A stretch of 64,000 bases of DNA from Actinomycetota bacterium (lineage in GTDB: Bacteria > Actinomycetota > Aquicultoria > Subteraquimicrobiales > Subteraquimicrobiaceae), in assembly GCA_030018275.1 (NCBI GenBank), contig JASEGB010000001.1, forward strand, positions 68,618 to 132,617, read 5' to 3'. Of this stretch, positions 11,587-63,059 are shown in pieces (within the stretch, counting starts at the first letter, position 1; each line of letters starts with the position of its first letter). Position numbers and translations under genes: made by a program. The notes below the pieces were generated by a model. The model was not told the origin of the DNA and searched no databases. It saw nothing but the letters and a program-made list of their open reading frames with translations.

Positions 11587-12474
11587 TTAGTCCTCTCTAA
11601 CTTGCTCCTTAGGGACAGACTCGCGAGAATAAATGCAAACCCTATTTCTTCCAGACTCCTTAGCCGAATATAGTGCTTGATCCGCGTTAACAATTAATTC
11701 AGTATCATCGCCAGCATTGTAGGGATAAATGGCTACACCCGCACTTATAGTCTTTTTGACCCTGGGATTCTCCACGTCACCTTCGAATTCCTCTGCTTCT
11801 ACGGCTTTCCTTATCCGCTCAGCCACAATCCCCGCTTCTTTCGCCACGCCTGGTAGGAGCACTGCGAATTCTTCTCCTCCATATCTGGCCACGATATCTA
11901 TATCCCTCAGCCTTCTCCTAATGATCTTTGCGAGCCTGTTCAAAAGTTTGTTTCCTTTCACGTGTCCAAAGGTATCATTAAACTCCTTGAAATGATCGAT
12001 ATCTATCATGATCAAAGAAAGGGGCATTCCAAACCTATCAGCCCTTTTTACCTCCTCATTCAGTCGATCTATGAAATAGCTATAGTTATAAAGACCAGTT
12101 AATTTATCATGAATGGAGAGCCGTTCCAACAAAGCTTGCTGTGCCTTTTGTTTTGCAGATAAAAAGCCAAATATTATCCCCGATACAAAGAAGATGAAAG
12201 TACCAAGGGATATCTCGTAAATAAGATTGACCAAATTTCCAGTGATTAAACCCAGAGAAACTTCCCTATATAGCCATAAAGCCATCAACCCAATGCTCAA
12301 TAATCCAGTGACTATAGCTCCTACCACATCGAAGGTGAGAGCGGCGATGAAAATGGGGATAATGTAGAGATACCAATATAACTGTAACTCGCGCGTGTAA
12401 TAAATGAGCAAAGATACAAAGGCCAAACTGATGAAAACCAAAAGCAAATATCTCAAGCGAATTGCCGGTCTCAT
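11587..12474 (-). CDS. Membrane-bound diguanylate cyclase (GGDEF domain)
   Basis: A 295-residue protein. Residues 1–105 form about four membrane helices, followed by a short linker and a GGDEF domain from about 118 to 285. The active-site signature is GGEEF at 199–203, one of the two catalytically active forms. An inhibitory I-site RDID lies at 190–193, at the usual spacing. The product should make cyclic di-GMP at the membrane and be feedback-inhibited. No EAL domain or sensory domain apart from the helices is seen. It is a single gene ahead of the antiporter operon. The pilB paralogues in the same window carry N-terminal domains that can bind c-di-GMP in related proteins. Confidence 0.93.
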   Translation of the reverse strand: MRPAIRLRYLLLVFISLAFVSLLIYYTRELQLYWYLYIIPIFIAALTFDVVGAIVTGLLSIGLMALWLYREVSLGLITGNLVNLIYEISLGTFIFFVSGIIFGFLSAKQKAQQALLERLSIHDKLTGLYNYSYFIDRLNEEVKRADRFGMPLSLIMIDIDHFKEFNDTFGHVKGNKLLNRLAKIIRRRLRDIDIVARYGGEEFAVLLPGVAKEAGIVAERIRKAVEAEEFEGDVENPRVKKTISAGVAIYPYNAGDDTELIVNADQALYSAKESGRNRVCIYSRESVPKEQVRED

Positions 12475-50494: not shown

Positions 50495-51076
50495 CTATCC
50501 ACCACTTTTACTCGTCTGAGATTTACCACTTTCACTAGCTTGCTGGGGTTTGATGAGTGTGAAGGCGCTCGCGGAAATATCCACGGAGAGCTCGGGGTAC
50601 TCCTTCACGGATATGCTCACCACATTTACTTTTATCTCCCGGGGAAGTCCTTCAAGACGATAGAGAAAATCGACCACATCGAAGAATCCTCCAGTAATGT
50701 TAATACTCAAGGGTATTTCGGAAAAACTCTCCTTCGGGCTGAGAACAGAGGGTTTTATGGAAATAAAGTCAATGCCCGCTTGCGTGGCTATATCCTGTAG
50801 CTCGATTATAAGGGATGGAAGTTCGGGCTCCTTTGGAATTCTTTTGCTCAAGCTCAACAGCTTTGACTCAATTTGGGCTGATTCCTCCTTTGCGGCTTTA
50901 AGGCGTGAAAGCGTAGACTTCGCTGTCTCCTGCCTCTTCCTCTCCTCCTCCATTTGCTTTCGAATTTGGGCTTTTCGGTTCTGTTGAGGTAGCCAAGCCA
51001 GGAGGAAGAATGCGACCACGAGAAGAATTGCAAATATGCCCACTGCCGTTATCCTAGACTTAAGCGAAATGGTCAT
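50495..51076 (-). CDS. pilO: Type IV pilus assembly protein PilO
   Basis: A 193-residue protein with a short cytoplasmic start, one membrane helix (12–30), a coiled coil (ESAQIESKLLSLSKRIPKEPELPSLI) and a ferredoxin-like domain. The IPKEPELPSLIIELQDIATQAGI segment is the PilO hallmark. With PilN it forms the inner-membrane alignment complex. It starts 4 bp after pilN. Confidence 0.88.
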   Translation of the reverse strand: MTISLKSRITAVGIFAILLVVAFFLLAWLPQQNRKAQIRKQMEEERKRQETAKSTLSRLKAAKEESAQIESKLLSLSKRIPKEPELPSLIIELQDIATQAGIDFISIKPSVLSPKESFSEIPLSINITGGFFDVVDFLYRLEGLPREIKVNVVSISVKEYPELSVDISASAFTLIKPQQASESGKSQTSKSGG

Positions 51077-51080
51077 GCCC

Positions 51081-51662
51081 TCACTCTCCCGAATTCTTAG
51101 GCGGGGCAGGAACGGAAGGCTTCGCCGTTTTTAATTGAGAAGTCGTCTCAAATCGGATGGCTTCTTGCTCTTCTACCTCTGTTTTTTCTGAAACATTGAG
51201 CCAAATCTCGGTAAACTGCTTAATTTCCTTCAACCTGACCATCCATTTTGCCACCGAATTATGGGTGAAGGTGTGACCTTGAAAAGTGATTCCAGCATTC
51301 ATGTCTCCCTTAAAAGAAGTCAACCAAACATCGCTCGGTATGACCATACTAATTTCGTTGAGTAGCTTCGACCATGATACCTCGCCTTCCATTGCGGTCT
51401 TGAGGATTCTCTCTCGCTTTTCAACCTCAGCCTTTTTCTTCTCATAAATTTCATACTCCGCGATTACCTCTTGTAACTTTTGATTTTCGGTCTTAATTGC
51501 GGAGAGTTCTCGCTCCTCCTGACTGACGACCCAGGCATTAATGGTATATATAAAAAATAAGATAAAAACGAGGACCACTATTCCCATGAATGAGTAAACT
51601 AGGATTCTTTCAGCTCTCCTCTTTCCAAGGATTTCCGGAGGCAATAAATTGATGTTCGTCAT
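51081..51662 (-). CDS. pilN: Type IV pilus assembly protein PilN
   Basis: A 193-residue protein. The N-terminal motif TNINLLPPEI is the PilN segment that docks in PilM. One membrane helix (about 24–45), a coiled coil (50–90) and a periplasmic domain with SEMVIPSDVWLTSFK-like sequence (MVIPSDVWLTSFKGD) follow. Its start overlaps the pilM stop by 4 bp. Confidence 0.92.
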   Translation of the reverse strand: MTNINLLPPEILGKRRAERILVYSFMGIVVLVFILFFIYTINAWVVSQEERELSAIKTENQKLQEVIAEYEIYEKKKAEVEKRERILKTAMEGEVSWSKLLNEISMVIPSDVWLTSFKGDMNAGITFQGHTFTHNSVAKWMVRLKEIKQFTEIWLNVSEKTEVEEQEAIRFETTSQLKTAKPSVPAPPKNSGE

Positions 51663-52789
51663 CGCTCAAACCCCCGTAGAGCAAGACCAAGACAAATGGC
51701 AAGGGAAGGTTCTTCAGCCATGAGCTCCCCTTGAGGTAATTTGGGATCGATCTGAAATCCCTTCAAAGGATGACCAAATTCCACATCCACTTGTAAGCTC
51801 TGACTTAGATAACGATCAAGGTATTCCAGTTTCGATCCACCTCCACTTAAAATAACACACCCAATGCCTTTGACCTGGGTGGCTTGCGCAAGATAATAAT
51901 CGAAAGAGCGTCGGACCTCGGTCACAAAATTATTTATTTCTTTCCCCAAAACCTCTTGCACCAGAGGCACTTTATCGGCCATCTCAGACCGAATCTTTTT
52001 GGATTTTGACTTCTTATTCAAAGGAGTTAGCCCTATCTCGACTTTCAAATCCTCGGCTTCGTCGAAGGATACGTTCAAGGCATCAGCTATGGCACGGGTA
52101 AAATCATTTCCCGCCAGAGAGGTCACCCGAGTAAATCTCGGTATTCCTCGCTCTACAACGACGATATTGGTGATCCCGGCACCGATGTTGATCAGAGCTG
52201 TTGCTGTTCCCTCCAACTCCCCTTCCCCAGGAACAATGGGTGACTCACCTATGAGCGAACGCACGAGGGCGAAGGAAGATACATCGATTACCACGGGTTT
52301 TAATCCAGCCCCCTCAACAGCGGCGACATTGTTCTGGATCATGTCCTTCTGTCCAGCTACAAGGAGCACCTCCATCATCCGCTCATTATTCTCCGTGGTG
52401 AATTCGCCTACCACTTGGAAATCGAGAATGGCTTCCTCGATGGGAATTGGAATGAATTCCTGAGCTTGATACTGAATAGCTCCTTTGAGCTCTGATTTCT
52501 CCATGAAAGGGAGTTCGATGAGGCGGACAACGACCTTCTGATTGGCTACACCGATTACCACTCTCCTGTCCCCAAAACCTGCATTCTTCCAGAGTCTAAA
52601 TAAGGAGTTTGAAATGGCTTCGACGTCGACTACTTCGCCCTCTACAACCGCTCCCATGGGGACCTTTACCTTGCCATACTTAATGAGGATGGGTGAACCC
52701 TGCGCTGGCTTAAGCTGAGCCGCTCGGAAGGTATTCGTGCCAATATCAAGACCTATTGGTGGAAGGATTCTAAATGGAAAAATGCCCAA
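51659..52789 (-). CDS. pilM: Type IV pilus assembly ATPase-like protein PilM
   Basis: A 376-residue actin/FtsA-like cytoplasmic protein. PPIGLDIGTNTFRAAQLK is the phosphate-1 loop, and INIGAGITNIVVVERG and ILSGGGSKLEYLDRYLSQ are the later nucleotide-site motifs. The conserved RLIELPFM and YQAQEFIPIPIEEAILDFQ stretches are PilM-specific. The start is TTG with GGAGG upstream. It heads the pilM-N-O-P operon. Confidence 0.93.
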   Translation of the reverse strand: MGIFPFRILPPIGLDIGTNTFRAAQLKPAQGSPILIKYGKVKVPMGAVVEGEVVDVEAISNSLFRLWKNAGFGDRRVVIGVANQKVVVRLIELPFMEKSELKGAIQYQAQEFIPIPIEEAILDFQVVGEFTTENNERMMEVLLVAGQKDMIQNNVAAVEGAGLKPVVIDVSSFALVRSLIGESPIVPGEGELEGTATALINIGAGITNIVVVERGIPRFTRVTSLAGNDFTRAIADALNVSFDEAEDLKVEIGLTPLNKKSKSKKIRSEMADKVPLVQEVLGKEINNFVTEVRRSFDYYLAQATQVKGIGCVILSGGGSKLEYLDRYLSQSLQVDVEFGHPLKGFQIDPKLPQGELMAEEPSLAICLGLALRGFER

Positions 52790-52940
52790 AATACGATTCC
52801 TCCTACGATCATGGCTTCCGCTTGATTTAAACCTTTGTTGCTTCCCCTCTTCGGGCGGGGCATTACCTTTTATCTCTTTTAAAACCGATTACTTGATTCG
52901 ATAAAATTTTGTATTTCCCTCTTTTAAAAATTCCAGAAAT

Positions 52941-52967
52941 TTATCGGCATTTCCGCCCATTTCTTTA
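52941..52967 (-). promoter_or_regulatory. Sigma-28 (FliA/WhiG)-type promoter upstream of pilM operon
   Basis: On the minus strand TAAAGAAA, an 11-nt spacer, then GCCGATAA. The -10 is a perfect match to the FliA/WhiG consensus and the -35 core TAAA is intact. It sits just after the pilX stop codon and leaves a leader of about 145 nt before the pilM TTG. Confidence 0.7.
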
Positions 52968-52975
52968 ATAAATCA

Positions 52976-54409
52976 CTATTGCTCACGCCAAGTCCTGTAA
53001 TCGAGTGTCACACCTTGTATGATCCCAAAGGTACTTGGATACTCCGAGGGCATGGCAGATCCCCTGAAGGTCAACTTGACTCGTCTTTTGATATTATCAA
53101 ACCAAAGCTGACCATCATCATTATCGACGTCTCCCGCAATTATACTCCCGATAACCGCTATTTCCCGACCATTGGATTCGGTGCGGAATCGGATTCCCCT
53201 CCGGGAGAAGACTACCCCTTCTAGTTGAATGTGGTTTCCAGTATCGGTCGATCCCGCATTGGTATTTGAAGTCAGAAATATAACATATCTGGAGAGGAGA
53301 CTGGATTGGGTGGAGTAAATATAATCGTAAACCCTCGTTCGAGCATTGCTGTAGAGTTCGGTATTCGCTCCCATTTGAGTTGGCTTTGGTTTGGTTCCTT
53401 GGATGACCAGGGCATCCGTATTCGTATTCGGATCATCATCCCAACCACCGGCGATGATTTGTATCTTTTCCTCGATGGTTGAGCTATTTATGGTCACATT
53501 GCCATAAGCCACAATCGTGGTTACCGTGGAGGTATCCGTGCTGGTTACGGTAGCACCATCGATGGTCAAATTCCCATTTATGTAGGTCTTGCTTCCCCCC
53601 GTGAGTGTTACTGTTCCGGTCCATGTTTGGTTTCCGGCGGGGTAAGTGCTCGCCGTGCGAATTTCCCGTTCGTAAGGGGCTGTTCTAAAGGTGGGTAGCC
53701 CCGAGGGATCGGCGGAAGTGGCTTCCTTCCAATGCGCGTCGGGAAATTCCCTCACACCGGCAACGTATTTATTATCCACGGGGCGCACACCGTCTTCGTC
53801 ATAGGCATATCCAAGATAATTGGAACTCGTGCTCGGTTCCCTGATGTTTATGACCCAACCGTGGATGTTTAAAACATCGCTCCCCGTACCGTAGATCATG
53901 ACCCTCGTGGTTTCCGTCGTATCATTGTATATGAAGACGTTATCCTCCGCAGAGGGATCATCATCATTTCCGGGTATGGCGTTGAATTTAGCTGCGGTCA
54001 AGGCACGTTGGAAAGAGGCGGGCACCGTATTCACGACCGCTTGAACTCTTATTCTCCTCGTTACCCCCGTAACTTTCCCCACGGAAATGAGCAACCCAGT
54101 GTTCGAATCGTAAATCGTATAATAGCTTCCCGATCCAAGAGCAACCGGTGTGGTCTCGCTTCCAATCGTGCCGGACATGTTGCTGTTTAAACTCCACAGG
54201 GCGTGGTTTATTCCAGCTTCTGCTAGATAATAAGCTTTTGTGGAATTGGCATGCTGAATTACCATATATGCCTCATTTATGGTCAGGGAAATGAGGGCAG
54301 TCCCCACAAGGATCAAGATCAAGACGGCGCTTAAAGCAAAGGCTAGCGTGTATCCCTCTTCCTTGATTAAAATCTTCAATCTAAGCGGAAACTTGACCAT
54401 TCTTCCCAT
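52976..54409 (-). CDS. PilX-like pilus assembly protein with large C-terminal domain
   Basis: A 477-residue protein with a type III-like prepilin helix (EGYTLAFALSAVLILILVGTALISL) preceded by a basic leader. It continues NEAYMVIQHANSTKAYYLAEAGINHAL, the PilX_N signature. The long extracellular part is Thr/Ser/Asn-rich and predicted beta (TVTSTDTSTVTTIVAYGNVTIN) and may be an adhesive or capping domain. It is much longer than typical PilX (about 170 residues). It follows pilW by 15 bp. Confidence 0.82.
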   Translation of the reverse strand: MGRMVKFPLRLKILIKEEGYTLAFALSAVLILILVGTALISLTINEAYMVIQHANSTKAYYLAEAGINHALWSLNSNMSGTIGSETTPVALGSGSYYTIYDSNTGLLISVGKVTGVTRRIRVQAVVNTVPASFQRALTAAKFNAIPGNDDDPSAEDNVFIYNDTTETTRVMIYGTGSDVLNIHGWVINIREPSTSSNYLGYAYDEDGVRPVDNKYVAGVREFPDAHWKEATSADPSGLPTFRTAPYEREIRTASTYPAGNQTWTGTVTLTGGSKTYINGNLTIDGATVTSTDTSTVTTIVAYGNVTINSSTIEEKIQIIAGGWDDDPNTNTDALVIQGTKPKPTQMGANTELYSNARTRVYDYIYSTQSSLLSRYVIFLTSNTNAGSTDTGNHIQLEGVVFSRRGIRFRTESNGREIAVIGSIIAGDVDNDDGQLWFDNIKRRVKLTFRGSAMPSEYPSTFGIIQGVTLDYRTWREQ

Positions 54410-54424
54410 CTCATAAATCCTCCA

Positions 54425-55130
54425 TCACTTCCTCAACCTACATTCATTCTCCAGCCTGTATTCCTCTGGAAACTCACCCGGATTTTTATCCATGATTAAG
54501 GTGATATAAATCTGGTAGGGTTGATTGACATCATCCGCCCTGAAAACTGGGACTGATTTATTCCGGTTGATCAAATATCTAGCCACAATTTGGCTTGAAC
54601 TATCAACTTGCCTTGTTAAAATTCCATTCGTCGATAGAGAGTAAATCACCGACGTATCATAGGTATAATCGGCATGAACGATATCGGTTTCCGCCAGAGA
54701 ATAATTGAAGGTAACCGTTCCCCTCTCATAATTTACGCTATATTCGCTGGATGGACGGGGGATGCCATTTTTGTAGATGGTTGGAGGTGCCCATGATAAC
54801 CATGGATAATATCGCGATGGTCCGTAGACCTTCCGTCTGGGATCGGTTGTGGACAATTTCTCTCCAACTATTTGCAATCCGGATATGGTGAGGCTATAAT
54901 CGGTAATCCCCGTAACCTTATAGCATTCCCTAAGCTCTTGAGCTATCCTCAACATGGCAATTCGCACTCCGTTGAGCATCTATCTGCCCCTCGGAAAGAT
55001 TCCAGGTCTCCAGGCCTTGAACTAACAAGCCGTATAAAGCCCCAACTATCAAAAAGAGCAAAGCTCCAGCCAAAAGTAGCTCCACCAGAGTGAACCCTCT
55101 CTCTTCATTGGATTTAATATATCCCAGCAT
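54425..55130 (-). pseudogene. PilW-like minor pilin, frameshifted
   Basis: The N-terminal frame (55130–54930) has a prepilin signal, RGFTLVELLLAGALLFLIVG, cut after Gly with Glu+5. It leads into LETWNLSEGQIDAQR. The continuation, VRIAMLRIAQELRECYKVTG and on to 54425, is in the +1 frame, so the switch lies near 54968–54982. The combined length of about 235 residues fits a PilW-type minor pilin. It is not in a homopolymer. It is either inactivated or an assembly error. Confidence 0.8.
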
Positions 55131-55145
55131 GAACCTCGCCCCCGC

Positions 55146-55553
55146 TTATAGCTTCCTTGCCCTGTAAGTTACCAGTATTACGGCTTGCGTTTGACCTTCC
55201 CTCGTCCAGCTCACCTTAACCGTAATTCTCTTAATATCCGCATTCGAATTTGTGATCTCAGAAGGCGAAGAGACTATTGTTACCTCACGATTAAAGATCT
55301 TACCCCCTGCAGTTCTTGTATCCGAATAAGTGCCATCTTGAAGCTCGGGGTCATCATAGGCTTTATTCCTCAGGTACTCCATCTTCTCTTGGGCAAAATT
55401 GGTGGCAAGATTCTTATCCTTGGAGGAGGAAACGAACCCAACCCCTTCATAAAACATAATGAATATGGGAATTAGGATGAGAGCAACGATCGTCGCCGCT
55501 CCTAAGACTTCGAGAAGGGAAAATCCTTTCTCGCTTCTTGTCATTACTCCCAC
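55146..55553 (-). CDS. PilV-like minor pilin
   Basis: A 135-residue prepilin with leader EKGFSLLEVLGAATIVALIL, cleaved before Phe with Glu at +5. NFAQEKMEYLRNKAYDD is the PilV hallmark, and the C-terminus is beta-rich (ADIKRITVKVSWTREGQ). A GTG at 55553 or an ATG at 55544 could start it. It is the first gene of the pilV-W-X minor pilin set. Confidence 0.86.
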   Translation of the reverse strand: MGVMTRSEKGFSLLEVLGAATIVALILIPIFIMFYEGVGFVSSSKDKNLATNFAQEKMEYLRNKAYDDPELQDGTYSDTRTAGGKIFNREVTIVSSPSEITNSNADIKRITVKVSWTREGQTQAVILVTYRARKL

Positions 55554-55581
55554 CCGCTTCTGTAAAGATTGCTCGCTATTT

Positions 55582-55608
55582 TTATCGGCATCGCAGGTGG
55601 AGAGCTAA
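55582..55608 (-). promoter_or_regulatory. Sigma-28-type promoter upstream of pilV-W-X
   Basis: The minus strand shows a perfect -10, GCCGATAA, with TTAGCTCT 11 nt upstream, a weak -35. It lies in the 66-bp gap between pilD and pilV, about 30 bp from the start codon. Confidence 0.5.
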
Positions 55609-55619
55609 AGGCACAGGAT

Positions 55620-56393
55620 CTATAGGAAACATAAGCTTAAATAGTAGCGGAAAATCTGGGGGCCGAAGAATAGGGTTATGAATCCACCGAGGGCAAGGAA
55701 TGGACCGAAGGGAATAATATCCTTTCTGCTCATTCCCTTGAAGATGATGAGTGCAATGCCGGAAATAGCTCCCAAAAGAAAACCAAGGAATAGAGCGGTC
55801 AGCACATGCCAGCCCAGGAATATACCCAAAAATGCCGCGAGCTTTATATCCCCTCCCCCCATCCCCTCTCTCCTTAAAAAAAGATGAGCCAATAATGCCA
55901 CCAGCAGTAGTAATCCTCCACCGATGAAAAACCCAATCAATGAGGAGCCTATCGCTTGTGGATTGGACAAAATCACTAAGATGAACTGTACCACTAAAGC
56001 CGGCAAAATTACCTTATTGGGAATGATCTTGTGCTTCAAATCGATGGAGGCAACTAAGAGAAGGATGGAGGTGAAGAATGAAGCCGATAAAAACCCCGAG
56101 CTTAGTCCAAACTTTAAGAAACAAAATAAAAACAGGAGTCCGGTCAATAATTCCACCAGGGGATATTGGATGGATATCCTTCCCTTGCAATAGCGGCACC
56201 TGCCCTTGAGCAGAAGATAACCGATAAGCGGAATATTGTCATAAGCTCTTATGATTCTACCACAGTGGGGGCAATGAGAGCTGGGAAAGATGATCGATTC
56301 TTTCCTGGGAAGACGGTAAATACAAACATTCAAGAAGCTTCCAATGGCTAATCCGAATATGAAAAAGACCAATCCCATTATTCCCTTTAGCAT
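55620..56393 (-). CDS. pilD: Prepilin peptidase / N-methyltransferase PilD
   Basis: A 257-residue polytopic membrane protease (A24A). The N-terminal cytoplasmic domain has both zinc CXXC pairs (HCPHCGR and CRYCKG). The two catalytic aspartates lie in SIDLKHKIIPN and GGGDIKLAAFLGI. It cleaves and methylates the prepilins encoded around it. It has its own gap and promoter-like motif after the pilA terminator. Confidence 0.95.
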   Translation of the reverse strand: MLKGIMGLVFFIFGLAIGSFLNVCIYRLPRKESIIFPSSHCPHCGRIIRAYDNIPLIGYLLLKGRCRYCKGRISIQYPLVELLTGLLFLFCFLKFGLSSGFLSASFFTSILLLVASIDLKHKIIPNKVILPALVVQFILVILSNPQAIGSSLIGFFIGGGLLLLVALLAHLFLRREGMGGGDIKLAAFLGIFLGWHVLTALFLGFLLGAISGIALIIFKGMSRKDIIPFGPFLALGGFITLFFGPQIFRYYLSLCFL

Positions 56394-56456
56394 ATGTCCC
56401 TCATTTCGACATAGCGCCCCTTCAATGCCTTTTAACCTTCGATAATGCCTTTAAAT

Positions 56457-56484
56457 TTATCGACCTCTTTGCCACCATTATTTA
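56457..56484 (-). promoter_or_regulatory. Possible sigma-28-type promoter upstream of pilD
   Basis: TAAATAAT, a 12-nt spacer, then GTCGATAA (one mismatch to GCCGATAA) on the minus strand. It is placed directly after the pilA terminator, where a new transcript must begin. Confidence 0.4.
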
Positions 56485-56492
56485 GAGTGCAA

Positions 56493-56524
56493 TAAAAAAG
56501 TGGCACCCAAATGGGTGCCACTTT
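56493..56524 (-). terminator. Rho-independent terminator after the major pilin gene
   Basis: A perfect 10-bp stem, AGTGGCACCC/GGGTGCCACT, with a 4-nt loop (56499–56522). On the minus strand it is followed by TTTTT, and it starts about 18 bp after the pilin stop. It isolates the pilin transcript, as expected for a highly expressed gene. Confidence 0.9.
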
Positions 56525-56539
56525 CCCTAAAGGCTAACT

Positions 56540-56887
56540 TTAGTACGTATGAGGTGGAATGTTAGGACATACCGCATAAGGAGGATCCCCTGGAGCGATG
56601 GTGTAGAGAGCTTCAGCCTTCGGGCACTTCGGTGGAGCCTTGAGATATTTCTCCGTTATCAGAGGATGCTGATCGTCCAGCGGGCCAGTGGGAGGATAAA
56701 CATCTTCAGTGGCCTTGTAAGTAGTTATTGCTCCGTCGATCGTTCTTAAGTTTGCCTGACAAGTTCTCTTTTGAGCGCTCTCACGTGCCACGTTGAATAC
56801 CGGAACTGCGATGGCGACCAAGATAGCAATGATCAGAACGACGACCATTAATTCTATCAATGTGAAACCTCTTTCCTTCCTAATCAC
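56540..56887 (-). CDS. pilA: Type IV major pilin (PilA/ComGC-like)
   Basis: A 115-residue prepilin with a short basic leader MIRKERG cut before Phe, then TLIELMVVVLIIAILVAIAV with Glu at +5. The globular domain is small, with three Cys (RTCQANL, PKCPKAE, AVCPNIP) and a Pro-rich end. It starts at GTG with AAGGAGG upstream. It has its own sigma-28-like promoter and a strong terminator, so it is a single-gene transcript. Confidence 0.92.
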   Translation of the reverse strand: MIRKERGFTLIELMVVVLIIAILVAIAVPVFNVARESAQKRTCQANLRTIDGAITTYKATEDVYPPTGPLDDQHPLITEKYLKAPPKCPKAEALYTIAPGDPPYAVCPNIPPHTY

Positions 56888-56974
56888 CTCTTTTCACCTC
56901 CTTGCATGAGTGAGAAAATTTAAATTGCATTTGGAGCTCCAACATCACCTCCGAGAAAAGTTACCTCACTAACT

Positions 56975-57001
56975 TTATCGGCACCTTGCTTTGAAACCTT
57001 A
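56975..57001 (-). promoter_or_regulatory. Sigma-28 (FliA/WhiG)-type promoter of pilA
   Basis: The minus strand reads TAAGGTTT, 11 nt, GCCGATAA, against the consensus TAAAGTTT-N11-GCCGATAA. This is 15 of 16 consensus bases with exact spacing. It is 88 bp upstream of the pilA start and is the best of five such sites in the cluster. No c-di-GMP riboswitch was recognised in the leader. Confidence 0.8.
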
Positions 57002-57051
57002 ATATCCTCAAATTCTTTGGACCTGCGACCTGCATCAAGCGGACCTTTACC

Positions 57052-58266
57052 CTATTTAATCAGGGTAATCACTTGGAACATCGGCATATACAGGGAGATA
57101 ATTATGCCTCCAATTAAGGTTCCCATGACCACGATCATTAAGGGTTCGATCAAAGAAGTGAGCGCATCCACCGTGGCTGAAACCTCCGAATCATAGAAAT
57201 CGGCAATCTTATTCAACATTGAGTCGAGGGCTCCCGTCTCCTCGCCAACGGCGATCATTTGAACCACCATTGGAGGGAACACAGTGCTTTCCTCCAGAGG
57301 TCTCGCGATGCTTTCACCCTCCTTGATACTTGCTCGAGTCCTCATCACAGAGGTAGCAACCACAGCATTGCCCGATGTTTCCGCCACAATGTCCAAAGCT
57401 TGGAGTATGGGGACGCCACTGGAGACCAAGGTTCCCAGAGTTCGAGCAAATCTAGCTATGGATATCTTACGAACCAATGACCCGATGATGGGCAAGTGCA
57501 ATTTTATCCTATCGATCTGCAATCGACCTGTTTCCGTCCTCCCAAACCATCGGAAGGCATAAACCAATGCTATGGTAATGAGCAACCCTATGTACCAAAA
57601 ACTTTGCATGAAACCGCTTGCGGCCAGCAAAATCCGAGTGGGTAAAGGAAGTTCGCCACCCAAACCTTCGAACATCCTCACAAAAATTGGGACAACGAAG
57701 GTGATCATGGCAAATAAGATGAGCATGGAAAAGCCGAACATGGCCGAGGGATAAGCCATCGCCGATTTTATCCTCCCCTTCAATGTCGTTTCCTTCTCGT
57801 AATGTTCGGCTATTCGAAGCAGTACCTCATCGAGTACTCCACCGGTTTCTCCAGCTCTTATCATATTGATGAATAAGGGAGGAAAAATTCCTGGATGCTT
57901 TGCCAAGGCATCGGAAAGTGCTTGTCCCGCCTCGACATCGTGCTGAACTTCGGCAATCACCTTGGCCAGGGCAGAATTTTCGGTTTGCACACTCAAGATG
58001 TTCAGACATTTGGTCAGGGAAAGACCGGCATTTATCATGGTGGCGAACTGACGGCTAAACACCGTGAGATCCTTCAATTTTATTCTTTTAAAGCGCATAA
58101 GGACTTCGCCAGGACTAGGGACTTCAGCTTTCTCCTTAATACCCAATACGATGTATTCCATCTGGCGCAATTTATTAGCAACGGTGATTTCGCTATCGCC
58201 TTCGAGGGAGCCCACTATTATCTTGCCCTGTCTATCACGAACCCTATAAGTAAAGGTTGCTGCCAA
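57052..58266 (-). CDS. pilC: Type IV pilus inner-membrane platform protein PilC
   Basis: A 404-residue GspF/PilC protein. Two repeated cytoplasmic helical domains (FSRQFATMINAGLSLTKCLNIL and FARTLGTLVSSGVPILQALDIV) are separated and ended by membrane helices. FPPLFINMIRAGETGGVLDEVL and FPPMVVQMIAVGEETGALDSML are the paired signature motifs. It couples PilB/PilT to the pilus. It follows pilT by 27 bp. Confidence 0.95.
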   Translation of the reverse strand: MAATFTYRVRDRQGKIIVGSLEGDSEITVANKLRQMEYIVLGIKEKAEVPSPGEVLMRFKRIKLKDLTVFSRQFATMINAGLSLTKCLNILSVQTENSALAKVIAEVQHDVEAGQALSDALAKHPGIFPPLFINMIRAGETGGVLDEVLLRIAEHYEKETTLKGRIKSAMAYPSAMFGFSMLILFAMITFVVPIFVRMFEGLGGELPLPTRILLAASGFMQSFWYIGLLITIALVYAFRWFGRTETGRLQIDRIKLHLPIIGSLVRKISIARFARTLGTLVSSGVPILQALDIVAETSGNAVVATSVMRTRASIKEGESIARPLEESTVFPPMVVQMIAVGEETGALDSMLNKIADFYDSEVSATVDALTSLIEPLMIVVMGTLIGGIIISLYMPMFQVITLIK

Positions 58267-58293
58267 TGATTACACCTCCAAACTCAATTCATC

Positions 58294-59355
58294 CTATCCC
58301 GCTCGACTAAGAAGCTGCCTTATATCGTGGGGGTCGATTGCCCGCGCCATAGCCATCTCGTAAGATATCTTCCCCCTCCGGTAAAGATCGGCTAAGGCTT
58401 GGTCCATCGTCTGCATTCCGTACTTCTGTCCAGTTTGCATGACGTTATAAATTTGGTACCCTTTCGCCTCTCTAATGAGATTCCGAACCGCTGGGGTGGC
58501 AAAAAGAACCTCCACGGCAACCACTCTACCCCTTCCATCTCGAGTCTGCAGGAGTTGTTGAGCTACTATTCCTTGCAGGGTGCCAGCGAGTTGGATCCGC
58601 ACCTGCTGCTGCTGATGTGGAGGGAACACATCGATGATCCGGTCAATCGACTGGGGAGCATCTGGAGTGTGAAGAGTTGCAAAGACTAGATGTCCCGTTT
58701 CGGCGGCGGTTAACGCAGTGGCGATAGTCTCAACATCGCGCATCTCCCCTATTAAGATGACATCTGGGTCCTGACGCAATACATACTTGAGGGCATTTGC
58801 AAAGGATTTGGTATCCAAGCCAACTTCCCTCTGATTAACGATGGACTTTTTGTGATGATGGAGATACTCTATGGGATCTTCGATGGTCATTATGTGAACG
58901 TTTCGTGTTTCATTGATGATGTTGATCAAAGCGGCGAGTGTCGTTGTCTTTCCACTACCGGTTGGTCCAGTGACCAACACAAAACCCCTTGGTTTTCTGG
59001 CCAGTGTTTCCAGAATCTTCGGGAGACCTAGCTCTTCAAGGGTTTTTATCTCAACGGGGATGAAACGGAAAGCAGCGGCGAGACTATTTCGCTGATGATA
59101 TATGTTCACTCTGAATCGGGCTTTCCCAGGTAAGGAATAGGAGAAATCAAGCTCCAAATTCTTTTCCAACCTCTCCCGCTGCTCCGATGTAAGGATGCTA
59201 TAAACCATCTCCTTGGTATCCTTGGGAGTTAGCTTAGGATAATCTAGGCGAACGAGATCCCCGTGAATCCGTATTACGGGAGGAGTTCCCACCGTAAGGT
59301 GCAAATCCGATGCTTCTCTTCGCAAAACCTCTTCTAATAGATCAGTCAATTCCAT
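58294..59355 (-). CDS. pilT: Type IV pilus retraction ATPase PilT
   Basis: A 353-residue hexameric ATPase counted from the ATG at 59355, which has GGGGGA upstream; longer frames would begin ahead of the promoter. The start is LEEVLRREASDLHLTVGTPP. Walker A is GPTGSGKTTTLAAL, the Asp box is TIEDPIEYLH, Walker B is ILIGEMRD and the His box is HLVFATLHT. The retraction motif AIRNLIRE-like segment is AVRNLIREAKGYQIYN. It leads the pilT–pilC transcript. Confidence 0.94.
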   Translation of the reverse strand: MELTDLLEEVLRREASDLHLTVGTPPVIRIHGDLVRLDYPKLTPKDTKEMVYSILTSEQRERLEKNLELDFSYSLPGKARFRVNIYHQRNSLAAAFRFIPVEIKTLEELGLPKILETLARKPRGFVLVTGPTGSGKTTTLAALINIINETRNVHIMTIEDPIEYLHHHKKSIVNQREVGLDTKSFANALKYVLRQDPDVILIGEMRDVETIATALTAAETGHLVFATLHTPDAPQSIDRIIDVFPPHQQQQVRIQLAGTLQGIVAQQLLQTRDGRGRVVAVEVLFATPAVRNLIREAKGYQIYNVMQTGQKYGMQTMDQALADLYRRGKISYEMAMARAIDPHDIRQLLSRAG

Positions 59356-59390
59356 GGATTTCCCCCATTTTATTGGTGACATCGCCAATA

Positions 59391-59417
59391 TTATCGGCAA
59401 ATTCCCACAATTCATTA
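59391..59417 (-). promoter_or_regulatory. Sigma-28-type promoter upstream of pilT–pilC
   Basis: TAATGAAT, 11 nt, then a perfect GCCGATAA on the minus strand, 36 bp ahead of the pilT ATG. The -35 matches the consensus at five of eight positions. Confidence 0.6.
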
Positions 59418-59524: not shown

Positions 59525-61207
59525 TTAGACTATGACCCTCATTATCTCCTCGATGGAGGTGATCCCCAAACGCACTTTCTCGAAGCCATCCTGCCTTAGG
59601 GTCCTCATCCCCTCGGCGATGGCTACCTCTTTGATCTCCTCAGCGGTGGCTTTTTCCACGGTGAGTCGCTTAATGGTCTCACTCATCAACATTATTTCAT
59701 AGATCCCTATTCTTCCCTTATATCCAGTATCATTGCACTTGCTACAACCTTTGGGACGATAAAGTGTGGCTATATCATCGCCCTCCAAGGGGAAACCAAT
59801 CTCTTTCAGTGCTTTTGTGGAAGGATTGTAGGACTCTTTACATCCCTTGCACAATCTTCTGGCGAGTCTTTGAGCCTGAACACAATCAACGGCTGAAGAA
59901 ACGAGAAATGGAGGAATTCCCATCTCTGTGAGTCTGGTGATGGCTCCGGGAGCATCATTTGTATGTAGGGTCGATAACACCAAATGTCCCGTTAAGGCTG
60001 CTTCTATTGCTATTTGTGCGGTTTCTCTATCTCGAATTTCGCCTATCATTATGATATCGGGTGAGGACCTCAGGATCGATCTTAAACCTCTAGCAAAGGT
60101 TAAGCCAGCTTTGGGATTTATCTGAATTTGATTAATGCCGTGTAATCTGTATTCCACGGGATCTTCTATGGTAACGATGTTTTTCTCCGGTATATTGAGG
60201 ACATTTAGCACAGCATAAAGAGTGGTCGACTTACCACTCCCAGTGGGTCCGGTGACCAAGATGGTCCCATAGGGCTTCGTGAATGAGGATTTGAATTTCT
60301 TAAGGCTCTCTGGGAGGAATCCCAAATCATTCAAATCCATCAGAATGCTTTCCTTCTCCAAAATACGGAGAACGACCCTCTCCCCATGAACTGTGGGAAG
60401 GGTGGCCACCCTGAAGTCATAAGCCTTCCCTCCAACGGTTAGTCCACAATGTCCATCCTGGGGCTTACGACACTCGGCGATGTCCATTCCGGCCATAATC
60501 TTAATGCGAGAGGTGAGGGCGGGTTGAATCCTCCTTGGGGAGCGCATGACCTCGTGGAGAACGCCATCTATTCGGTATCTTACTCTTAAATCCTTTTCCT
60601 GGGGTTCGATGTGGATATCGCTTGCCCGGTCATGGATCGCCCGGGTGATTACCAAATTTACCAGCTTTACGATGGGTACCTCCTCAGCGATCTCATGAAT
60701 TTTCTCTACCGGGATTTCCTCCTCTATCTCCATGATACCTTCGATCTCCCGTCCCAGTGCCTCGCCCATTCTGTAATAATGATTGATGGCAGAAAGGATA
60801 TCGGATTCCGTGCTCACCACGGGCTTTATGTCGTAACCCGTGACGATCCTCAAGTCGTCGATGGCGAAGACGTTGGCGGGATCGGCCATAGCCACGACCA
60901 ACCTATCGCCCTCAAAATCGATGGGAAAGACGAGATATCGCCGGGCTATCTCTTCGGAGATGATGGCTACAGCACTTGCATTGATCTTACATTCTCCTAA
61001 ATCAACGAAGGGGAGACCCTTCCTTTTCGCAAGGACGGAGGTTAAAGTGGCCTCACTGATTAACTTCATATCCACGAGAGTTTGAGCTAAAGATTTTCCA
61101 GTCTCCTTTCGAACCTCCTCGGCCCTCGCCAGCTGCTCCGGAGTCACAATCCCCTCATTTATCAGGATTTCTTTGAGTTCTTCATCCAATTTTGTCACCA
61201 TATCCAT
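59525..61207 (-). CDS. pilB: PilB-type pilus ATPase, divergent copy (PilB1)
   Basis: A 560-residue GspE/PilB ATPase with N-terminal MshEN-like region (1–150), N2 domain and C-terminal ATPase. Walker A is intact at 320–327 (GPTGSGKS), Walker B has Glu390 (IMIGEIRD), and the zinc Cys pairs are CKGC and CSKC. However, the usual ERRxPQDGRFG motif reads ECRKPQDGHCG (Cys246, His253, Cys254), and RNDPD reads RSSPD at 380–384. Two conserved arginines are thus lost. It may be impaired or specialised. It is a tandem duplicate of the upstream pilB2. Confidence 0.9.
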   Translation of the reverse strand: MDMVTKLDEELKEILINEGIVTPEQLARAEEVRKETGKSLAQTLVDMKLISEATLTSVLAKRKGLPFVDLGECKINASAVAIISEEIARRYLVFPIDFEGDRLVVAMADPANVFAIDDLRIVTGYDIKPVVSTESDILSAINHYYRMGEALGREIEGIMEIEEEIPVEKIHEIAEEVPIVKLVNLVITRAIHDRASDIHIEPQEKDLRVRYRIDGVLHEVMRSPRRIQPALTSRIKIMAGMDIAECRKPQDGHCGLTVGGKAYDFRVATLPTVHGERVVLRILEKESILMDLNDLGFLPESLKKFKSSFTKPYGTILVTGPTGSGKSTTLYAVLNVLNIPEKNIVTIEDPVEYRLHGINQIQINPKAGLTFARGLRSILRSSPDIIMIGEIRDRETAQIAIEAALTGHLVLSTLHTNDAPGAITRLTEMGIPPFLVSSAVDCVQAQRLARRLCKGCKESYNPSTKALKEIGFPLEGDDIATLYRPKGCSKCNDTGYKGRIGIYEIMLMSETIKRLTVEKATAEEIKEVAIAEGMRTLRQDGFEKVRLGITSIEEIMRVIV

Positions 61208-61388: not shown

Positions 61389-63059
61389 TTAGACTATGAC
61401 CCTCATTATCTCCTCGATGGAGGTGATCCCCAAACGCACTTTCTCGAAGCCATCCTGCCTTAGGGTCCTCATCCCCTCGGCGATGGCTACCTCTTTGATC
61501 TCCTCAGTGGTGGCTTTTTCCACGGTGAGTCGCTTAATGGTTTCGCTCACCAACATGACTTCGAACACACCTATCCTACCTTTATAACCCGTTCCATCGC
61601 ACTTGCCGCAACCCTTGGGTCTATATAAAGTTGGTACCTCCTTATCCTCGCTCAGAGGAAAACCGACATCTCGTAAAACCTTTGGATCTGGAGTATATGA
61701 TTCCTTGCAATGGTTACATAGCCTCCTTGCAAGTCGCTGAGCGACTATGCAGTCCACTGCGGAAGAAGTAAGAAATGGTTCCACTCCCATCTCCGTTAAC
61801 CTGGTAAGGGATGAGGGAGCATCGTTCGTGTGCAGGGTGGATAGCACCAGGTGACCGGTAAGTGCCGATTCTATGGCTATCATAGCCGTCTCCTGATCAC
61901 GGATCTCGCCTATCATCACGATATCCGGATCGTTTCTCAAAATGGAACGGAGTCCCGTTGCAAAGGTTAAGCCAGCTTTGGGATTTATCTGAATTTGATT
62001 GATGCCGGAAAGTCTATACTCGACCGGATCTTCAACGGTGATGATGTTTTTCTCAACTGAATTTAAAACATTGAGAACAGCATATAGGGTCGTGGTTTTA
62101 CCACTCCCAGTGGGTCCGGTGACCAAGATGGCCCCATAGGGCTTCGTGAATGAGGATTTGAATCTCTTAAGGCTCCCTGGAAGAATGCCTAAATCATTGA
62201 GATCCATCAAGATACTTTCCTTCTCCAGGAGACGAAGTACGATTTTTTCCCCATGGACCGTAGGTAAAGTCGCTACCCGAAAGTCAATCGATTTTTTATC
62301 AAGTGTTAGGCCAAAACGTCCGTCCTGGGGGATGCGACGCTCGGCGATGTCCATTCCAGCCATGATCTTAATACGAGAGGTGAGACCGGGTTGAATCCTC
62401 TTTGGGGAGCACATGACCTCGTGGAGAACGCCATCTATTCGGTATCTTACTCTTAAATCCTTTTCCTGGGGTTCAATGTGGATATCATTTGCTCGCTCCC
62501 GCACAGCTTCCGTGATGATTAAATCGACCAGTTTGACCACGGGGGCTTCTTCGGCTTCTCGCTCCTCCGTTAAAGCCTCACGAACCTCGCTTTCGGCGGC
62601 AATGCTCTCCGCCACTTGCTCGATGGTTTTATCCACCCTTGCGTATTGATGGATTGCGCTGAGGATGCTCGATTCCGTGCTCACCACGGGTTTTATGTCG
62701 TAACCCGTGACGATGCTCAAGTCGTCGATGGCGAAGACGTTGGCGGGATCGGCCATAGCCACGACCAACCTATCGCCCTCAAAATCGATGGGAAAGACGA
62801 GATATCGCCGGGCCACTTCCTCCGAAATTATGGTCGCGGCATTGGAGTTAATCTTGTAATCCTCCAAATTTATGAAGGGAAGGTGCATCCTTTCAGCTAG
62901 GGTCTTTGCGATATCTCCCTCGGTGACATATCCTAAATCGACGAGAGTCCGCACCAGCGATTTGCTATCCCTGGACTCTAAGGCTTTTTGCAGTTGTGCC
63001 TCCGTGATGAGACCGGCTTCTATCAAAATTTTGCCCAGTCTCTTTTTAACCCTCACCAT
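61389..63059 (-). CDS. pilB: PilB-type pilus extension ATPase, canonical copy (PilB2)
   Basis: A 556-residue PilB with all expected motifs. The N-terminal MshEN-like stretch RLGKILIEAGLITEAQLQKAL may bind c-di-GMP. ERRIPQDGRFG holds the conserved arginines, GPTGSGKTTTLY is Walker A, NDPDIVMIGEIRD is Walker B, HLVLSTLHTND is the His box, and CNHC/CGKC are the zinc pairs. It powers pilus extension. Its start overlaps the aroE stop by 14 bp, so it is co-transcribed with aroE. Confidence 0.94.
   Translation of the reverse strand: MVRVKKRLGKILIEAGLITEAQLQKALESRDSKSLVRTLVDLGYVTEGDIAKTLAERMHLPFINLEDYKINSNAATIISEEVARRYLVFPIDFEGDRLVVAMADPANVFAIDDLSIVTGYDIKPVVSTESSILSAIHQYARVDKTIEQVAESIAAESEVREALTEEREAEEAPVVKLVDLIITEAVRERANDIHIEPQEKDLRVRYRIDGVLHEVMCSPKRIQPGLTSRIKIMAGMDIAERRIPQDGRFGLTLDKKSIDFRVATLPTVHGEKIVLRLLEKESILMDLNDLGILPGSLKRFKSSFTKPYGAILVTGPTGSGKTTTLYAVLNVLNSVEKNIITVEDPVEYRLSGINQIQINPKAGLTFATGLRSILRNDPDIVMIGEIRDQETAMIAIESALTGHLVLSTLHTNDAPSSLTRLTEMGVEPFLTSSAVDCIVAQRLARRLCNHCKESYTPDPKVLRDVGFPLSEDKEVPTLYRPKGCGKCDGTGYKGRIGVFEVMLVSETIKRLTVEKATTEEIKEVAIAEGMRTLRQDGFEKVRLGITSIEEIMRVIV

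Follow-up and report, generated by a model that had tools for sequence, protein, structure and literature searches.

The type IV pilus cluster of the uncultured actinobacterium Candidatus Subteraquimicrobium (class Aquicultoria) carries five sites of the FliA/WhiG promoter type on the minus strand of the window, that is, the whole stretch of 64,000 nucleotides that was analysed. It is highly probable (roughly 0.87) that these sites act as promoters for RNA polymerase carrying the sigma factor WhiG, which would be held by RsiG together with c-di-GMP and released at low c-di-GMP. An earlier, sequence-only reading of this DNA had placed such promoters at the heads of the pilus transcripts, and this is supported by both promoter boxes, their spacing, their conservation and a single WhiG orthologue in the genome. 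In the mechanism proposed by analogy with Rubrobacter and Streptomyces, where the systems have been solved, RsiG (98 residues, one motif) would form a homodimer that binds a c-di-GMP dimer when the messenger is abundant and keeps WhiG from RNA polymerase. A drop in c-di-GMP would then free WhiG, the only FliA/WhiG-family sigma factor over the cut-off here, and the polymerase containing it would read the five sites, transcribing pilT-C, pilA, pilD, pilV-W-X and pilM-N-O together. Since WhiG-type pilus promoters, WhiG and RsiG all occur in this genome, c-di-GMP most likely acts as the switch for making pili, as in Rubrobacter.

Promoter sites in the pilus cluster

The presence of the sites in the five pilus gaps was confirmed. 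Four exact copies of GCCGATAA were found on the minus strand where they had been reported (52941-52948, 55582-55589, 56975-56982 and 59391-59398), the one-mismatch copy before pilD (56457-56464) is present as GTCGATAA, and the -35 words named for an 11-nt spacing were correct. Each site was scored by its matches to TAAA-N14-16-GCCGATAA (12 positions). The best one, 12/12 (TAAA-N15-GCCGATAA, 52941-52967), precedes pilM (51659-52789), pilN (51081-51662) and pilO (50495-51076), all these genes and those below being on the minus strand. A score of 11/12 was obtained for three sites: TAAT-N15-GCCGATAA (59391-59417) upstream of pilT (T2SSE ATPase, 58294-59355) and pilC (T2SSF, 57052-58266), with the same boxes in both congeners; TAAG-N15-GCCGATAA (56975-57001) upstream of pilA, coding for a major pilin-like protein (N_methyl, 56540-56887); and TAAA-N16-GTCGATAA (56457-56484) upstream of the prepilin peptidase gene pilD (A24, 55620-56393), where the -35 box stands at a spacing of 16 and both congeners keep the boxes with a different spacer. 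The remaining site, TTAG-N15-GCCGATAA (55582-55608), reaches 10/12 owing to a weak -35 box and precedes the genes of a pilV-like minor pilin (55146-55544), a pilW-like minor pilin (54425-55130) and a pilX-like protein (52976-54409).

All five sites thus lie in gaps upstream of pilus transcripts, that of pilT only when its start is set at the ATG at 59355. The longest pilT reading frame overlaps the promoter site, which was taken as intergenic because the ATG at 59355 corresponds to the conserved MELTDLLEEVLRREASDLH start of PilT. The highest score among 25 other gene-headed gaps of the window was 9, and no good site was found in the gaps of a second GGDEF gene (11587-12474) and of pilB, which encodes the extension ATPase with an N-terminal MshEN domain (59525-61207; best 7/12). 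The summed pilus score was equalled by none of 2000 permuted motifs. The octamer itself occurs eight times in the window versus 2.0 ± 1.5 times in shuffled sequences (eight being reached in 1 of 100 shuffles), and the four exact copies outside the pilus gaps are all located within genes.

The comparison of the same gaps in related genomes, which the sequence-only reading had proposed, bore the promoters out. When the pilus clusters of the two congeners (G001 and G002) were aligned over the five gaps, both were found to retain the boxes while spacers and flanks vary, with substitutions at 2/112 box, 23/152 spacer and 230/1134 flank positions (p = 3e-8). In a genome of the same order (G003), the homologous gaps before pilA, pilV and pilX have like sites in different surrounding sequence.

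The sigma factor WhiG and the anti-sigma factor RsiG

The FliA/WhiG-family sigma factor on which the promoter proposal depends is present. A single gene of the 1.49 Mb, 99% complete genome exceeds the family cut-off (TIGR02479, 290 bits, cut-off 189.6), and it encodes a WhiG orthologue, the closest PDB match of which is WhiG of Streptomyces venezuelae (6pfj, E = 6.5e-96). The gene order, with names read from the translations, is dprA-xerC-whiG-rpsB, and Streptomyces whiG likewise lies near dprA and rpsB. Residues K57, G61 and R62, listed as the c-di-GMP contacts of S. venezuelae WhiG (PMC8325347), align to K50, G54 and R55 of the protein described here. The one flagellar gene searched for, that of FlhA (PF00771), was absent from the genome of the window and from four relatives of the same order (G000 to G004), and in most flagellated relatives a further gene exceeds the FliA/WhiG cut-off; the WhiG found here therefore belongs to a probably non-flagellated cell.

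The RsiG gene (L078:1456-1749, 98 codons) was recognised by PF22802 with 62.6 bits, and its product matches the Rubrobacter RsiG structures 7lq2, 7lq3 and 7lq4 at ~6e-8. The protein contains a single motif, EERLSYRRRILHGKID (E-ERL-S-YR-R-RIL-H-GKI-D), which agrees with the pattern E-x3-S-x2-R-x3-Q/H-x3-D. A strict pattern with Gln had recovered no real RsiG before the Pfam model succeeded, because the residue is His here; this replacement is the rule among the related genomes examined. His also occupies this position in RsiG of C. woesei, for which a Kd of 25 uM for c-di-GMP has been published (PMC8325347).

The unlinked position of rsiG and whiG in the assembly (contigs C7 and C17) and the predicted nature of RsiG-WhiG binding leave room for WhiG driving the pilus genes free of RsiG and c-di-GMP, with RsiG having another role or failing to bind WhiG. 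Such an arrangement is nevertheless unlikely, given that RsiG retains its c-di-GMP motif, WhiG its three contact residues, and that the two proteins co-occur in most relatives. It is very unlikely that the boxes serve some other sigma factor, or a transcription factor, instead of WhiG: although another sigma factor gene (C5:37571) scores 114 bits with the FliA/WhiG model and has a WhiG-like site of its own 44 nt upstream, this is far under the family cut-off in a genome with a true WhiG, the sites in the pilus gaps agree with the FliA/WhiG consensus in both halves and in the distance between them, and the spacers drift in the congeners while both boxes stay. Recognition by WhiG under the control of RsiG is preferred.

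Twin-motif RsiG-like proteins (~176-193 aa) were also noticed, in L164, L180, L242, G009, G011, G020 and G036, and they coexist with single-motif ones in the same class and phylum. Independent duplications of the motif, as opposed to the published single duplication event, are possible.

Sites elsewhere in the genome and in other Actinomycetota

The possibility that the motif is as common at random sites, considered in the sequence-only reading, turned out to be correct for the octamer alone, which is not over-represented genome-wide (58 copies versus 53 of the reversed word), and incorrect for near-perfect full sites, which are enriched upstream of genes. Sites with up to two mismatches show no excess over the reversed control (215 versus 226), and for this reason only near-perfect, well-placed sites were used. 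Of those with at most one mismatch, 7/18 lie just upstream of genes, where ~4% of positions qualify (p = 4e-6); the automatic count wrongly included tgt (coding) and wrongly excluded pilT (upstream), and as these errors are opposite, the figure of 7 stands.

The remark that no comparable intergenic match had been noticed outside the cluster holds for the window, with a best score of 9/12, and does not extend to the genome, where sites of 12/12 and 11/12 were found. The former precedes a second minor-pilin-like locus with PilX-like and PilV-like genes (C11:19756, L216) and the latter a GGDEF gene (C9:11307), where it is kept in G001. Good candidate sites also lie upstream of the genes for a 7TM-GAF-HD-GYP protein (C8), a lytic transglycosylase-like protein (C7:42050) and an SLH-amidase (C2:129328). 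Together with the site upstream of the additional sigma factor gene (C5:37402, L234), which may reflect a sigma cascade, these genes, examined in stretches around motif matches, are candidate regulon members only; among them, the c-di-GMP enzyme genes are few, being those of the GGDEF and HD-GYP proteins. Two promoter-like matches were discarded, one preceding tgt (L189) and the other an HD-GYP gene (L206), the GCCGATAA word being in each case part of the coding sequence of the gene itself.

A survey of 80 other pilC loci, mainly from Actinomycetota (Aquicultor, Coriobacteriia, Anaerosomatales, Geothermincola, Solincola and others), revealed a site of at least 10/12 before 56% of the pilin genes versus 1.4% for permuted motifs, and before 34% of the pilT genes versus ~1%, the value for other genes being 4.6%. 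A FliA/WhiG sigma factor was detected in 44/47 and RsiG in 40/47 of the surveyed genomes that were searched for them, and RsiG was detected in 36/40 when the genome of the window and its 39 nearest relatives were considered. Two of the three genomes with no FliA/WhiG match at the threshold used contain candidate sites (L115 and L148), but they are metagenome bins. The presence of the motif barely separates genomes with RsiG from those lacking it, since nearly all of those sampled have both. Single-motif RsiG had been found only in Rubrobacteria and Thermoleophilia (PMC8325347); as judged from sequence, deep Actinomycetota beyond those classes widely have both this form of RsiG and predicted pilus promoters of the WhiG type, which is new. 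In view of their recurrence in pilC loci, along with the sigma factor and RsiG, WhiG-type pilus promoters look old in the phylum. That FliA-like words merely arose by chance in AT-rich gaps, as the want of an excess of two-mismatch sites might suggest, is hardly credible in the face of the permuted motifs, the excess specifically upstream of genes, the conservation of the boxes in two congeners and the recurrence of the pattern in other Actinomycetota loci.

A c-di-GMP-I riboswitch upstream of pilA in related species

Alignment of the pilA leaders showed that both congeners carry ~130 nt extra between the WhiG-type promoter and pilA, at the junction 56961..56962 of the minus strand of the window. 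The additional piece (L280, L283) was identified by Rfam as a c-di-GMP-I-GGC riboswitch (68 bits), which is followed by an intrinsic terminator hairpin. The correspondingly shorter pilA leader of the window gave no match in the Rfam search, and the riboswitch and terminator either have truly been lost or are missing through an assembly error.

The aptamer is present in the pilA leaders of G001, G002, G003, G006 and others. When 12 of these aptamers were made into a model and 93 sources were searched with it, 19 matches were obtained, each with a pilin gene downstream (19/19); 12 of the 19 had served to build the model and match by construction, which leaves the promoter test unaffected. For 13/19 aptamers there is a WhiG-type site scoring 10/12 or better, its -10 box ending 9–57 nt before the aptamer, 0.2 being expected from permuted motifs; the aptamers of L138, L144, L145, L147 and L148 have no good WhiG-type site there. 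Pairing of aptamer strands with the terminator loop or its 5' arm, over up to ~12 pairs, is possible in four relatives. Compared with shuffled arms, this complementarity is significant in G001 (p 0.013), G002 (p 0.007) and G006 (p 0.047), and long yet not significant in G003 (p 0.11). A tentative interpretation is that the riboswitch of the relatives acts as an OFF switch, tentative because, of seven leaders in which a terminator is clear, only three reached p < 0.05 and the Aquicultor leader displayed no terminator-aptamer complementarity.

The occurrence of a c-di-GMP-I riboswitch behind the WhiG-type pilA promoter of the congeners and many relatives, whereby two predicted c-di-GMP sensors are stacked, is new; a literature search found nothing linking WhiG with a riboswitch. 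The odds are about even that pilA of deep Actinomycetota is governed by two such sensors, RsiG-WhiG acting on the start of transcription and the riboswitch on its continuation, both silencing pili at high c-di-GMP, and that the window species is left with the sigma layer alone after losing the RNA one.

Comparison with known systems

Type IV pilus genes under a sigma factor of this family had been regarded as an unusual regulon in the sequence-only reading, and in this respect it was mistaken, for such regulation is already published for Rubrobacter and Actinoplanes (PMC8325347). RsiG, the spread of the regulon and the pilA riboswitch of the relatives lay outside that reading. On the evidence of structures, a search for promoters and mapped transcription starts, Schumacher et al. 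2021 concluded that the type IV pili of Rubrobacter are under the control of RsiG–c-di-GMP–WhiG. Of the twelve promoters that they mapped, three lie in the pilus cluster and five upstream of genes for c-di-GMP enzymes (PMC8325347). The system described here is of the same kind, sharing a WhiG-family sigma factor, a single-motif RsiG, TAAA/GCCGATAA promoters within the cluster of type IV pilus genes and, among its putative targets, a few genes for c-di-GMP enzymes; its lineage, its breadth and the stacked riboswitch of the relatives are additions. It differs in belonging to the class Aquicultoria, in having five cluster promoters instead of three and in the RsiG motif, where His replaces Gln. 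The relatives, moreover, have a pilA leader with a c-di-GMP-I riboswitch, and riboswitches are nowhere mentioned in the Rubrobacter paper (PMC8325347). With Streptomyces the system has in common an orthologous sigma factor of the same promoter specificity, whereas RsiG of Streptomyces has two motifs and the regulon there is that of sporulation. In Actinoplanes, a WhiG-like flagellar sigma factor transcribes type IV pilus genes (PMC8325347). That organism, which produces zoospore flagella and pili, is flagellated and without RsiG, in contrast to the genome studied here, in which no flhA was found.

The species of the window would thus extend a c-di-GMP-controlled sigma switch, known from Rubrobacter pili and Streptomyces sporulation, together with several further deep actinobacterial lineages, and this wider spread supports the view that pilus control is an old role of WhiG, sporulation control having been derived later. 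The stacked riboswitch of the relatives raises the question of why one messenger should gate one transcript twice, and of what changes in a species without one of the gates. The pilin riboswitch of Clostridioides difficile belongs to class II and is an ON switch. The relatives of the window species resemble that organism in having a predicted c-di-GMP-sensing RNA in the pilin leader and differ from it in that the RNA is of class I and stands behind a WhiG-type promoter; in the window it is absent. The c-di-GMP riboswitches upstream of pilus genes in C. difficile have been described (PMC6200980).

Further features of the pilus cluster

The pilM leader (52790-52940, minus strand), ~150 nt in length, is well conserved in the congeners and contains GCCCCGCCCGAAGAGGGG; an Rfam search of this structured leader gave no match. 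The reading frame of pilW (54425-55130), open in both congeners, is shifted in the window near 54965, pointing to either a pseudogene or an assembly error. Two consecutive PilB/GspE-type ATPases are encoded on the minus strand (59525-61207 and 61389-63059), both with an MshEN domain. This domain is known to bind c-di-GMP in some ATPases, and in the tandem pair it possibly provides a further input of c-di-GMP into the pilus.
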